From an uncultured Caryophanales bacterium (GTDB lineage: Bacteria; Bacillota_I; Bacilli_A; RF39; UBA660): a DNA stretch of 51,241 bases. The DNA lies in NCBI GenBank assembly GCA_947089915.1, contig CAMUMB010000004.1, positions 1-51,241 of the forward strand. The letters run 5' to 3'. The notes beneath the pieces were generated by a model. That model saw only the letters and a list, made by a program, of their open reading frames with translations, did no database searches and was not told the origin of the DNA. A program made the position numbers and the translations under genes. Below, piece by piece: positions 5,000-50,666 of the stretch (within the stretch, counting starts at the first letter, position 1; every line of letters starts with the position of its first letter).

Positions 5000-5208
5000 A
5001 AAAAACAAAAGAAATCTATAGAATAAGGACGGGATTCCCCGCGGTACCACCTTACTTCATAGATTTCTCTATACACTCATATCTTTAACGCAGATTTACG
5101 TTTATCTTTTATTTGATGTCTTCCTATGTACCTGATGTATATTTTCACCCAACATATACTCTCTATCAATCAAAATACAAAGTACTCTTTCAAACAATAA
5201 TGAATATG
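5000..5208 (-). promoter_or_regulatory. T-box leader, specifier probably GAC (Asp), of the hisS-aspS operon
   Basis: T-box core AAGGTGGTACCGCGG (5053-5039), then a terminator in which AGAAATCTATGAAGTAAGG pairs with CCTTATTCTATAGATTTCT and ends in a T-rich tract. Upstream is a stem I with AGAGAGTATATG and GGGTGAAAATATAC arms, followed by GGAAGACATC, giving GAC (5120-5118) as the specifier. An Asp codon fits the aspS gene at the end of the operon. The AAA+ pseudogene lies between this leader and hisS. Confidence 0.88.
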
Positions 5209-8842: not shown

Positions 8843-9745
8843 CTATGGATAAAACATAATACCACTAAAATTTAATCGAGAGTTTGAACTACCCTGTGCA
8901 GGTGTACCAAAACAGATTTGATAATAATCACTAATATCAATTTCCACATTTGTTCCTGAAGTAGCGCTCCATAATGTAGTATATTGATTCGAATTCGCAT
9001 CATCCACAGTCTTATATCCCCGAATATAAGGGTTCCCAAAAGAACTACCAGATGTTGTAATGGAATCTACAACTAATTTAGTATATCCGTTTGTAATTAC
9101 ACTTAATTCACGGTAATTCCAACCGCTACCATCAGAACTACCTCCAAAACTAGTAATTTGAAATGGTGCAGAACCTCCAGCTGTCCCCGTAATCAACTCA
9201 CCTTGTACAACAGCTGTCTTTCCTTCTTTGATCTCTTCTGCTTTCGCATCTCCTTGTTTCTTAAGTGTATTTAACTCTTCTTGTAATGTTTTTATCCTTT
9301 CATTTAATGTATCTACATCACTTATAATTTCAAAGTTTCCTGTTTCTCCATTATACTTACAGCTTCCACTACCTCCTCTTACTTCACTTTCTTCTATATC
9401 TTTATATGCATAATACTTTCCGTCACTTATACATACTACTGTTTTTCCATTCGTATTTAATATCAGTTTCCCCTCTTGTATTTTTCCTTTATATTCTAGT
9501 TTTTCTTCACTTATTTGAACTCCATTTGCAAAGTCAAATACAATTGGTTCTTGTATTCCTTCTTGTATATGTTCTGTATAATACATGTTTGCTGCATCTA
9601 CAAGTCCATATGCACTATCTTGTAATGATGATTTCTTACTCTTTTCTATCACATCCATGATCATTGGCGTTGCGATTAATGCAATCACTGCTAATATTAC
9701 GATTACCGCTAATAATTCTACTAATGTAAATCCTTTTCTTTTCAT
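8843..9745 (-). CDS. Type IV pilin-like surface protein with coiled coil and phage-fibre-like C-terminal region
   Basis: 300 residues. The N-terminus MKRKGFTLVELLAVIVILAV is a class III signal: cleavage after G5, F6 becoming N-methylated, E10 as the conserved Glu5, then a hydrophobic helix to about residue 30. A pilin-like globular region follows (to about 140). A short coiled coil starts at DTLNERIKTLQEELNTL, and then comes EIKEGKTAVVQGELITGT. That last motif matches a repeat often seen in tail-fibre proteins of gut Firmicutes phages (ILSGKTAYVNGxxITGT). The remaining roughly 110 residues are Ser/Gly/Thr-rich beta. No pilus assembly genes are nearby. A secreted or anchored adhesin is likely by inference. 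Confidence 0.75.
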   Translation of the reverse strand: MKRKGFTLVELLAVIVILAVIALIATPMIMDVIEKSKKSSLQDSAYGLVDAANMYYTEHIQEGIQEPIVFDFANGVQISEEKLEYKGKIQEGKLILNTNGKTVVCISDGKYYAYKDIEESEVRGGSGSCKYNGETGNFEIISDVDTLNERIKTLQEELNTLKKQGDAKAEEIKEGKTAVVQGELITGTAGGSAPFQITSFGGSSDGSGWNYRELSVITNGYTKLVVDSITTSGSSFGNPYIRGYKTVDDANSNQYTTLWSATSGTNVEIDISDYYQICFGTPAQGSSNSRLNFSGIMFYP

Positions 9746-9795: not shown

Positions 9796-9824
9796 AGTTT
9801 ACTACTTTATTTCACTACTTTCAA
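9796..9824 (-). promoter_or_regulatory. Promoter of the pilin-like gene
   Basis: TTGAAA (9824-9819), a 17-bp spacer, and TAAACT (9801-9796). The same elements are kept at the paralogue at 26507-26535 (TTGAAA, 17 bp, TGAACT). Confidence 0.65.
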
Positions 9825-9852
9825 TCTTTTTACTCCTTTCTTTATACCACTA

Positions 9853-9875
9853 AAAAGAGGGTTACCCCCTCGTTT
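9853..9875 (-). terminator. Terminator after the YtxH operon
   Basis: Minus-strand CGAGGGGGTAACCCTCTTTTT forms a short GC-rich hairpin followed by a T-run, about 50 bp after the YtxH stop codon and before the pilin promoter. Confidence 0.7.
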
Positions 9876-9921
9876 ACAAATAGCTAACACATACATTTCC
9901 TACTCGCAAACTATTTTATGA

Positions 9922-10350
9922 TTATTTCTCTTCTGTTTTTTCTAATCTATTTAATACTTCTTTTGTTACATCAATTGCTTTCTCACGAATTGCTTCTGCT
10001 GCTTTCTCTAAAACTGGCGTCCCCTTTTCCACTGCATACTCTACCAATTCTTCAGCCATATTTTGAATATCTTTTGCTTTCTTCTTTGCAATTTTAACTA
10101 CTTTTTCCTTATCTAACTCAGACAAACTCTCTTTAATTTCATAGATTTTATTCTCAATATTTTCTTTCACTTCTTTTTTGTCTAAATCTTTCACTTTTTT
10201 TAACATTTCATCAAATTTTTGTTTCAATTCTTTTCTAGTATCAGAACCTTTTTTTGGTGCGAATAAAACACCTAACCCAGCTCCAATTGCAACTCCAGCT
10301 AGTAACTTCCCAACTCCTTTTTTCCTTTTCGTTTGTTTATCCTTCTTCAT
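9922..10350 (-). CDS. YtxH-domain general stress protein
   Basis: About 142 residues from the ATG at 10350, chosen because GAGGAGG lies just upstream; the longer frame to 10422 has no RBS. A basic N-terminus is followed by a glycine-rich membrane segment LAGVAIGAGLGVLFAPKKG, with APKKGSDTRKEL the YtxH (DUF745-like) signature. A long charged helix, probably coiled coil or apolipoprotein-like, follows. YtxH proteins are membrane-associated stress proteins of unknown mechanism. It overlaps the DUF948-like gene by 14 bp, so the two are translationally coupled; DUF948 and YtxH proteins are often adjacent in Bacillota. Confidence 0.85.
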   Translation of the reverse strand: MKKDKQTKRKKGVGKLLAGVAIGAGLGVLFAPKKGSDTRKELKQKFDEMLKKVKDLDKKEVKENIENKIYEIKESLSELDKEKVVKIAKKKAKDIQNMAEELVEYAVEKGTPVLEKAAEAIREKAIDVTKEVLNRLEKTEEK

Positions 10351-16780: not shown

Positions 16781-16980
16781 AAAAAAGCATTATGTTTAAG
16801 GACGGAATATCCGCGGTACCACCTTAATTCATAATACTTATGCTCTCTTACATTTAACGCATGTCTACGCCTTTTAGGAACTCCAAAGCAAGTTCATTTT
16901 GTTCATCCCAAAGTTTTCACCAACCACTTTGTCTCTAATATGACATCTCAAAATTACTACTCTTCTTCTTCGTTTTTCTG
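16781..16980 (-). promoter_or_regulatory. Leu T-box leader of the leuS operon (specifier CTT)
   Basis: T-box core AAGGTGGTACCGCGG (about 16825-16811), with a terminator formed by GCATAAGTATTATGAATTAAG and CTTAAACATAATGC, ending in TTTTTT at 16786-16781. In stem I, AATTTTG pairs with CAAAAT, which is followed directly by GAA-CTT-GC; the specifier CTT (16892-16890) is a leucine codon, fitting leuS. Confidence 0.93.
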
Positions 16981-22657: not shown

Positions 22658-22688
22658 TTATACTATTTTATAGACTATAAGTAAATAA
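22658..22688 (-). promoter_or_regulatory. Toxin mRNA promoter
   Basis: Minus-strand TTTACT, a 17-bp spacer, and TATAAT in the ATTTACTTATAGTC...AGTATAATG region; the -10 is perfect, the -35 matches four of six. Coordinates are approximate within a few bases. Confidence 0.65.
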
Positions 22689-22809
22689 TTTTTGCCTTAT
22701 TTTACAAAGAAAAAATAACCTTACAGATTTTAAAAATCTGTAATAAAATCCTCTCAGAAATGAGAATTTCTATATGCATTGGATTTTTCAAATTTTCGTT
22801 ATATAAATA

Positions 22810-25540: not shown

Positions 25541-26462
25541 TTAGTTTACATTCACTTTAGCTGTATCACTTGTAGCAGACATGTAATATCTTTTCATATT
25601 AATCATGCCATTAGTGTCTGTTTGTTGTGCAGGTGATGATTGCATATCTGATGTATAGGATAAGCCACTATAGGTAAATGTAGAGGTATAGGTCAGTTCA
25701 TTTGAACTATGGCTTACCGTAGTATATACCAATATAGTTAATTTATCCCCAATAGCTATATTATTAATTGTAACCGATAATTCAGGAATACGTGCCGTTG
25801 TAGTAGCACCTCCATCATATACTTTGTAGTAGAGTATATCAGTATTATTCTCTAATGTTCCTGTAATCAACTCCCCATTGACATAAGCAGTTTTACCTGA
25901 TGCAATATCTGAAGCACTTGCCGTTCCTCCTGTTTTGAAGATATTTAGTTGTCTATTTAGTTCATTAATCTGTGCTTCATATGCCTCTTTCTGGGTCTTT
26001 ATCCTATCTTCATATTCTGCTCTTATTTGTGCGATATCTGCTTCTTTATTTGCCTCTAATTCTTCTATCCTTCTATTTAACTCTTCTATTTGATCTTTAT
26101 AGGTGTTTTCTATTGTTTTCTTCTGTTCTTCATAATCATTTGTTAGATTACTGATTCTTTCTTCATACTCATTTCTTATTTCTTCTATTTTTTTATTATT
26201 TTCTTCTTTTACTTTTTCTAATTCACTTTCTAAGTCACTACAGATCCCTACTGTCTCATATTCTTCTGTTGCTTCATTATAACTACATCTTCCACTACTT
26301 ATTCTTACTTCTTCTTCATCTATATTCTTGATTGCTACATACTTTCCATCACTATATAAGTACATACTTCCTTTTTCGATTCTTCCTTTATATCAAAGCG
26401 ATCACTGCAAGTATTACGATTACCGCTAATAGTTCTACTAATGTAAAACCTTTTTCCTTCAT
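25541..26462 (-). pseudogene. Second pilin-like/phage-fibre chimera gene, broken by an internal deletion
   Basis: The ATG at 26462 opens a prepilin N-terminus, MKEKGFTLVELLAVIVILAVIALI, then runs straight into TAA. Right there the sequence joins in another frame to KGRIEKGSMYLYSDGKYVAIKN, which aligns with residues near 85-110 of the intact paralogue at 8843-9745 (KGKIQEGKLIL, DGKYYAYKD). About 60 codons of pilin domain are missing and the join shifts the frame. The rest is intact: a coiled coil about 95 residues long with heptads (EEIRNEYEERISNLTNDYEE), then ASDIASGKTAYVNGELITGT and a beta-rich end. Without its signal the remaining 274-codon frame cannot be exported as a pilin. Confidence 0.8.
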
Positions 26463-26469
26463 TTTATTC

Positions 26470-26635
26470 ACTCCATTTTGTATTTTCTTTATTCTTTCTT
26501 ATACTTAGTTCACTACTTTATTCTCCTACTTTCAATCTTTTTACTCCTTTCTTTACACCAATAAAAAGAGGGTTATCCCCTCCCGTTTACAAATAGTTAA
26601 CCTATGTATCTACTCATAAACTATTTTATGATTTA
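26470..26635 (-). repeat. Upstream cassette shared with the intact pilin gene
   Basis: Near-identical to 9757-9925. It includes the promoter TTGAAA-17 bp-TGAACT (26535-26507), the hairpin GGGAGGGGATAACCCTC with T-run (about 26588-26567) that also ends the CPBP operon, and CATAAAATAGTTT. Confidence 0.85.
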
Positions 26636-33492: not shown

Positions 33493-33872
33493 TGGTGGAG
33501 CTGAGGAGAATTGAACTCCTGTCCGAAAATACCCTACCAACAGTATCTACAAGTTTAGTTGATTATTTCATTTCCTAAACTATGTTAGTAACCAACAACC
33601 CATAATTTAGTAAGCTCAAATCATTCATTGCTACTGTTGAGCACAATAACAATATATCCTACTCAATCGTGCCTTCTTAAATTCCCGTAGGAAAAGAAGA
33701 AAAGAAAGCTGCATTCCTTAAATTCGATTAGGCGAAGGCTACAGTATTCTTAGTGAATAAAGTAGCAAATGCATTTTTTAATTTATTTCCGTTTAATTTT
33801 TGTTTGTACGTAAGGTGTACCTCCCACTTGCAACTGAAAGCGGAACATTTCCGTCGAAACCAAAGCAGCCCC
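33493..33872 (-). ncRNA. ssrA: Transfer-messenger RNA
   Basis: About 380 nt. The 5' GGGGCTG (33872-33866) pairs with the 3' CAGCTCC before an encoded ACCA (end at 33493). The invariant TTTCGACGG follows the 5' end, and a T-arm with GTTCAATTCTCC lies near the 3' end. Resume-frame text reads down to AAC-ACT-GTA-GCC-TTC-GCC-TAA region, giving a tag ending NTVAFA. The tag appears long, about 25 residues, with an AFA end as in Mycoplasma tags rather than the ALAA of Bacillus; its first codon cannot be fixed by eye. tmRNA rescues stalled ribosomes with SmpB (34799-35239). RNase R (36-38 kb), also nearby, degrades the faulty mRNA. Confidence 0.97.
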
Positions 33873-49947: not shown

Positions 49948-50160
49948 AAAACAAAAAGTCCATAACTTAAGGGCGAAATCAAATCCGTGGTACCACCTTA
50001 ATTTATGAACTAATCATACACTCAATACTTGTAACGTAAGTAATTCGATTTTTCCTAATGTTCAGAAAAACACATCGAGAGTGATCTATAATCATAGTTC
50101 TGTTTCGTTTGCACCAACCACGAACTCTCTAAACTTCCTATTGATTACCGTCTCTGTCAT
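49948..50160 (-). promoter_or_regulatory. Ile T-box leader of ileS (specifier ATC)
   Basis: T-box core AAGGTGGTACCACGG (about 49999-49985; ACCACGG instead of ACCGCGG), with a terminator formed by TTCATAAATTAAGG and CCTTAAGTTATGGA ending in TTTTTG. Stem I carries AGAGAGTTCG and GGTTGGTGCAAAC, then GATCACTC; ATC (50085-50083) is an Ile codon and fits ileS. Confidence 0.9.
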
Positions 50161-50165
50161 CTGTT

Positions 50166-50666
50166 TTATAATTCTACTTCATCTAATTCATTGACTACTT
50201 CTAATTGTGCTTCTACAATATCTTTGACTCTACGCTTGAAGATATTGATATTTCTTCTTAACGTATTGGCTTCTCTTTCGGTTTTTTCTGCTTTAAGTAA
50301 TGCTTCATTAATAATACGGTTGGCATTTTTCTTTGCCTCATCTACCATAGCATCACTTTCTCTTTGCGCTGAAACACGAAGTTGTTCAGATGTTTTTTGT
50401 GCCATTACAATTGCCTTACTCATTGTTGCTTCCATCCGTCCAAATTGTTCTGCCTTTTGTTTTAAGTTTTTATTTTCCTCTTCTAAGCCCTGAAGTTCTG
50501 AAATTCTTTTATTTTGCTGAACAAGTTTTTGATTTTGTTCTGCAATTTTTTTATCTTTTTCTTTGATTTCAGATACCATGCCTTCTACTTGACCAATAAT
50601 TTTATCTAAGAAAGCATTGACTTCATCAGGGTCATAGCCACGAAGTGTTCTTGTAAATTTTTCCAT
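50166..50666 (-). CDS. divIVA: DivIVA-like cell-division/polarity protein
   Basis: About 166 residues from the ATG at 50666 (AGAGGTGATAGG); the ORF opens at 50702. N-terminal RTLRGYDPDEVNAFLDKII is the DivIVA membrane-binding domain (FxxxxRGYDxxEVDxFLD pattern). A long coiled coil follows (about 25-155). The family marks negatively curved membranes at septa and poles. Placed between sepF and ileS, as in the ylmE-sepF-ylmG-ylmH-divIVA-ileS neighbourhood of Bacillus, here without ylmG and ylmH. Confidence 0.93.
   Translation of the reverse strand: MEKFTRTLRGYDPDEVNAFLDKIIGQVEGMVSEIKEKDKKIAEQNQKLVQQNKRISELQGLEEENKNLKQKAEQFGRMEATMSKAIVMAQKTSEQLRVSAQRESDAMVDEAKKNANRIINEALLKAEKTEREANTLRRNINIFKRRVKDIVEAQLEVVNELDEVEL

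Follow-up and report, generated by a model that had tools for sequence, protein, structure and literature searches.

What kind of protein carries the N-terminus of a type IV prepilin in front of a coiled coil and a motif resembling those of phage tail fibres, and what might it do for the cell? A preliminary description of the window (the whole stretch of 51,241 nt analysed here, which is contig C4 of a 1.27-Mb MAG of 79 contigs, 91% complete; G000, called the own genome below) had placed such a gene at 8843-9745, and had proposed that it belongs to a family of variable surface fibres that use a pilin export route.

Organization of the C4a gene

The ORF was found exactly as claimed: C4a (8843..9745, minus strand, on which all of its parts lie) is a modular prepilin gene of 300 aa with an ATG start. 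The N-terminus of its product reads MKRKGFTLVELLAVIVILAVIALIATPM..., with a class III signal (MKRKG|FTLVE) that has the G|F site, the E at +5 and the hydrophobic helix of type IV pilins. The signal peptide with the start of the helix (MKRKG|FTLVELLAVIVILAVIALI; 9671..9745) matched the N_methyl profile PF07963 (E 1.2e-7), over its curated cut-off, and TIGR02532, likewise over its cut-off. It is followed by a pilin module (about residues 26-140; 9326..9670), which comprises the remaining long helix and a beta-sheet, and by a short coiled coil (about residues 143-166; 9248..9319) that was read from the sequence and is a helix in the AlphaFold model. The constant region ends at the GKTAVVQGELITGT hinge (residues 175-188; 9182..9223), where identity with the C48 gene stops and whose motif is also present in a phage tail protein. 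The variable C-terminal head (residues 189-300, 112 aa; 8846..9181) belongs to no known family and matched no Pfam family; one homologue of it was found, in the sister genome G003. Upstream, a probable sigma-A promoter, TTGAAA-N17-TAAACT (9796..9824), was read from the sequence between a leader element and the start codon.

The AlphaFold model contained a helix at residues 8-62 and strands at residues 68-140 (block-mean pLDDT 68-84; 60-84 over the pilin module), with a pTM of 0.39. When the model was used for a Foldseek search, no significant match was obtained, and the best pilin matches had E-values above 0.6. The model supports the long helix and the sheet but not the head, and the predicted pilin fold is only moderately confident. 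The identified neighbours of C4a encode SpoVS and a YtxH-like protein, in agreement with the earlier remark that no pilus machinery stands beside the gene.

The prepilin family and the pilus machinery of the genome

The proposed family was recovered genome-wide, with 18 matches to the N_methyl profile in the own genome. According to their C-termini, several of these 18 proteins were ordinary small pilins, and in the others the C-termini were long and of different kinds. The architecture of coil, GKTA motif and head was found in C4a, C48a and C48b, as well as in a gene on contig C37 that was detected through the motif search, its start running off the contig. The C8 pilin carries a Phage Tail Collar domain (E 6.7e-17), C17 holds two pilin genes with lectin-like heads, and C7, C35 and others have long tails of other kinds. 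An extra defined non-T4P domain on a pilin signature (Collar, Fib_succ_major or LRR_5) is a property of siblings; C4a has an extra C-terminal part, but one without a Pfam match. All five GKTA matches in the own genome fell in prepilin genes, of which one is broken and another truncated where its contig ends, and the same motif search gave no headless silent (pilS-like) cassettes. Prepilins fused to Fib_succ_major and LRR_5 domains were also seen in related genera (L088 1480-2670; L065, minus strand).

The preliminary description had named the lack of any prepilin peptidase as one finding that would speak against its proposal. An A24 peptidase (PF06750 A24_N and PF01478) was found on C38, adjoining a PilC-type platform (PF00482, T2SSF), and a PilB-type ATPase (PF00437, T2SSE) on C19, adjoining small ComG-like minor pilins. 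Peptidase, platform and assembly ATPase are all encoded, so that a pilin export route exists in this genome, and the dispersal of its genes explains why none of them lies near C4a.

The ComG-like pilins beside the ATPase, together with the resemblance of the N-terminus to ComGC, ComGE and GspG over short stretches (all under curated cut-offs), would suit pseudopilins of a secretion system or a competence pilus, whose long C-termini would be enzymes, substrates or assembly factors, not adhesive tips. This reading is regarded as very improbable, given that many paralogues with unrelated heads, heads of phage type and exchange of heads at a fixed locus are unexpected for conserved pseudopilins, and that no enzyme domain was found among the heads examined. 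Somewhat less improbable, although still unlikely, is that these are prepilin-anchored surface proteins which stay in the membrane, the N-terminus serving as export signal and anchor without assembly into a filament. In some relatives, the GKTA motif and a head do follow a different N-terminus, short and hydrophobic (MKKKGFATSAILYT...), with the same leader in front. Against such an anchor stand the full T4P machinery of the genome and a pilin-like module that lies between helix and coil and is conserved across the paralogues.

Comparison of heads between loci

The first 564 nt of the C4a and C48a ORFs are identical, and divergence begins right after GELITGT. The two genes have most of the leader and the 5' region in common, and their heads are unrelated (z -0.2). 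The C37 gene agrees with C4a at 92% over 346 nt up to the GELITGT point and again carries a different head. Moreover, when the C37 gene was compared with the orthologous locus of a sister species (G003:C49), the flank was 95% alike over 4.9 kb, as far as the stretch before the next gene, and the coil DNA was again 93% alike, whereas the heads between flank and coil were unrelated (z -0.4). As each head is contiguous with its own 3' flank, this difference is independent of assembly through the 5' repeat. The earlier expectation of variability was therefore borne out, as heads differ both between close paralogues and at an orthologous locus.

The C4a site of G003 retains the leader, the start codon and the first codons, after which the spoVS flank follows at once. 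In G003, the C4a head has a homologue beside hpf (z 50), and in the own genome the head itself lies near spoVS. The own site matching the hpf locus of G003 (on C34) holds a transposase-like gene with a weak helix-turn-helix Pfam match only, which is probably of the IS30 type, judging from its sequence. The pattern at the C4a, C37 and hpf loci is read as loss and exchange among paralogues, in a comparison of MAG assemblies with one genome per species. The assembly breaks at the repeats of this family (contigs C37 and C59 end inside them), so that the carrier-head join at C4 and C48 could be misassembled; each of these heads is nevertheless contiguous with its 3' flank.

A second version with a longer coiled coil had been described at 25541-26462. 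This copy, C4b (25541..26462, minus strand), is indeed a related prepilin gene with a longer coil, but it is a pseudogene: the reading frame runs from the start through 24 codons to a stop that a 182-bp deletion has created, and a further 27-bp in-frame deletion lies downstream. The 274-aa ORF at 25541-26365 is the 3' part of C4b and lacks a prepilin start and signal. An intact relative is present at C48:2000-3109, and a leader element precedes the broken copy (26559..26634, minus strand; RNA model E 3.6e-13, the sequence itself being part of the model).

Phage tail relatives of the motif and of sibling heads

The phage-fibre-like character of the GKTA motif was supported by a relative with four GKTA repeats in genome G014, which matched PHROG 13589 at 2.6e-29 and PHROG 38337 at 3.6e-24. 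It also matched three phage records, one of which is an annotated tail protein of the gut phage Dulem virus 36 (E 8e-7) that contains AADILSGKTAYVSGSKITGSM. Whether the motif is general to unrelated proteins was tested in part, and it was found on prepilin-type or prepilin-like N-termini and on phage tail proteins.

The suggested likeness between the C-terminal domains and phage tail fibres held for sibling heads (the C8 collar and the lectin-like C17 type) and not for the head of C4a. The C8 pilin (the protein read from locus L079) matched PHROG tail fibre 1858 at 2e-18, and the collar domain is also present in pilins of G003 and G057. Aligned over about 355 aa, the two C17 heads were 60% and 62% identical to a tail protein of a G001 prophage (PHROG 5302), and the C17-type head matched PHROG 5302 with an E-value of 3e-53. 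This prophage also has tape measure, holin and endolysin genes, and its tail gene is immediately followed by several template-like repeats and a DGR reverse transcriptase. Several pilins of G002 and G003 have the C17 head type with strongly diverged ends. Transfer of C17-type heads, presumably from phage to pilin, would be the natural reading. Neither for the C4a protein nor for its head was a phage relative found in IMG/VR (by a pattern-based scan) or in phage records, and since its own head has none, the phage link of C4a rests on the GKTA motif and on the siblings.

Two DGRs were seen in the course of the comparisons. The one of the G001 prophage (L146, G001:C2, 6232-9878) has about five tandem template-like repeats between the tail protein and the reverse transcriptase. 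The own-genome DGR (L046, G000:C55, 923-2601) consists of a template repeat (923-1002), a reverse transcriptase ORF (1165-2250) and a variable repeat (2522-2601), inside which the target ORF (2313-2558) ends; 10 of the 13 differences between template and variable repeat are at template adenines. An intergenic segment of the window (22675-22774) is 76% similar in DNA to the start of the same contig C55 (L046 52-145).

The leader element and its G runs

Many family copies are preceded by a leader of ~80 nt with a possible hairpin, a G run and a CCCTC-TTTTT stem. At C4a, the element (possible hairpin, G run and terminator-like stem) lies at 9848..9924 on the minus strand (RNA model E 3.8e-14, the sequence itself being part of the model). 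The leader was found almost only in this genus: the RNA model gave 17-35 matches per genome, some of them weak, in the five genomes that represent it, 8 weaker matches in one sister-genus genome and a single borderline match elsewhere among 98 genomes. Most leaders for which sufficient downstream sequence was available have a prepilin or prepilin-like start within the next ~130 nt, a proportion that is biased because the loci were fetched partly for that similarity. At least three leaders of the own genome stand before genes in which no prepilin start could be recognised. For three genes of this type, behind the leaders at L028 2370-2451, L129 3546-3625 and L130 3985-4063, Pfam gave no confident match.

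A run of at least 8 G was present in 38 of 50 distinct family leaders, the usual length being 9-12 G. Eight separate runs of at least 9 G were found in the own genome, seven of them inside leader matches, against about 0.1 expected per genome in an independent-base estimate from base composition. Two pairs of leaders from sister species were taken to be orthologous; one had 9 versus 10 G, and the other had equal runs (10). Folding suggests that longer G runs may pair deeper into the U tract, a possible route to altered termination. In the first leader helix, 89.7% of cells pair, versus 39-45% for slid versions; covariation support for this helix was not found, as there is no pair in which both sides change, and shuffles gave equal values. 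A known riboswitch was considered and rejected, the Rfam match being at chance level only (E 8.1). From the G runs, we infer that phase variation through the leader may act at the level of the family, not at C4a. The run in the C4a leader is degenerate (GAGGGGG, 5 G) and falls short of the long homopolymer of a phase-variable gene, which makes switching of C4a by G-run slippage unlikely at present.

The family might also be an ordinary multigene family in decay, in which divergence and occasional gene conversion proceed without functional switching. Its relics, namely C4b, the reduced C4a site of G003 and, upstream of mraZ, a leader with what is probably a fragment of a pilin, speak for decay. 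This is considered very improbable in view of the intact long ORFs, which predominate among the members collected, of constant parts that are homogenised while the heads differ, and of long G runs kept far above chance.

Further G runs were seen outside the leader arrangement, in relatives from other genera. In G014, a run of 13 G lies between TTGACA and TAAAAT before a GKTA surface protein (L086, about 5685; G014:C40:10684-10696), a candidate for promoter-spacer phase variation. In G057 (G057:C50; L087, about 6835), 10 G stand just before the prepilin motif of a collar pilin, apparently inside the first codons, which makes them a candidate for translational phase variation.

A second class of N-terminus (MKKKGFATSAILYTMLLLF) was seen behind the common leader at L085 5600-5980, L091 3415, L162 5909 and L158 5046, and at G004:C58 this class is joined to a GKTA motif and a head. 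A scan of GTDB genomes gave one locus only; it belongs to the MAG of an uncultured Bacilli bacterium, and its contig and protein seem to be those of G004:C20. At L048 42-806 (G000:C6), a truncated leader lies 3' of a murC-like gene and 5' of a short ORF that resembles part of a DNA cytosine methyltransferase. The window further contains four T-box leaders (674-912, 5022-5201, 16795-16979 and 49966-50169) and a tmRNA gene (33493-33872).

Discussion

Several known systems combine a constant and a variable part. In the PilV shufflon of IncI plasmids (e.g., TP114), a minor pilin has a constant N-terminus and a variable C-terminal adhesin. The C4a family shares this division, whereas its variants are separate full-length genes. 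A shufflon of the PilV/Rci type was rejected for C4a: around the gene there are only imperfect inverted repeats (77-93%) and no long perfect ones, no headless cassettes were found, and no Rci-type recombinase was recognised among the neighbouring ORFs. In Neisseria pilE/pilS, recombination between paralogues alters the exposed part of the pilin; here, in contrast, the difference extends to whole, unrelated heads, and no silent partial copies were found.

As in DGR targets (PMC8144416, PMC6642488), sibling pilin heads are homologous to the tail protein beside a prophage DGR, and among the proteins that carry DUF1566, a domain often targeted by DGRs, "putative pilin structures" have been noted (PMC6642488). 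The C4a head is of another type, without the lectin-like end. C4a was rejected as a DGR target on this ground and because the own-genome template (C55) pairs with another ORF; no template repeat matching the sibling pilins was found. Sibling heads match the tail-collar and tail fibre proteins of phages (PF07484, PHROG 1858 and PHROG 5302) at E 7e-17, 2e-18 and 3e-53, but here these heads sit on prepilins.

Modular type IV pilins are already known. In PilB and PilC of Streptococcus sanguinis, a functional module is grafted on a small pilin (PMC8179133, PMC9934059), and such pilins are widespread, with more than 1,200 proteins in 264 architectures (PMC8179133). By its sequence, the C4a family fits this kind: a module on a small pilin, predicted to be displayed on a filament, in a monoderm host. 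It differs from the S. sanguinis pilins in that one genome holds many paralogues whose carriers are similar and whose heads are unrelated, in the head difference at an orthologous locus, in the phage tail heads of some members and in the common leader before many copies. The main text of PMC8179133 has "phage" once and "collar" never. A limited search of the open-access literature gave no description of phage tail heads occurring together with a common G-run leader and with heads that are unrelated at an orthologous locus.

What was observed is a constant carrier (prepilin signal, pilin-like module, coil and GKTA hinge) with a head that differs between close paralogues. Our preferred reading, to which we give a probability of roughly 65%, is that C4a is a modular minor type IV pilin, a displayed constant carrier whose head is swapped by recombination between paralogues, with G-run slippage perhaps also at work in the family. 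PilD would cut the G|F bond of the prepilin, and PilB and PilC would build the carrier into a type IV filament, probably at its tip or close to it. The head, which is thus predicted to be displayed on the surface, may bind a ligand on host tissue, a glycan or other microbes. The comparisons between loci suggest that paralogues swap heads by homologous recombination, for which the conserved 5' part would provide the shared sequence. More tentatively, in many family members, C4a at present excepted, slippage of the leader run of 9-12 G might switch or tune expression, and might thereby give a population with changing sets of tips.

A wider proposal is that the genus took phage receptor-binding heads onto its type IV pilins, exchanges them between many loci by recombination and switches the loci stochastically by poly-G leaders; this is put forward as a speculative possibility that we consider rather doubtful. 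The comparisons suggest that the cell may display and exchange virus-style receptor binders on its surface. If the wider proposal is true, it would be the counterpart in cells of phage host-range switching, each cell having a different set of tips. The carrier set, the phage-type heads and the exchange of heads would then tie phage tail evolution directly to bacterial adhesion, and would explain, in a testable way, surface variation in uncultured Bacilli with small genomes.
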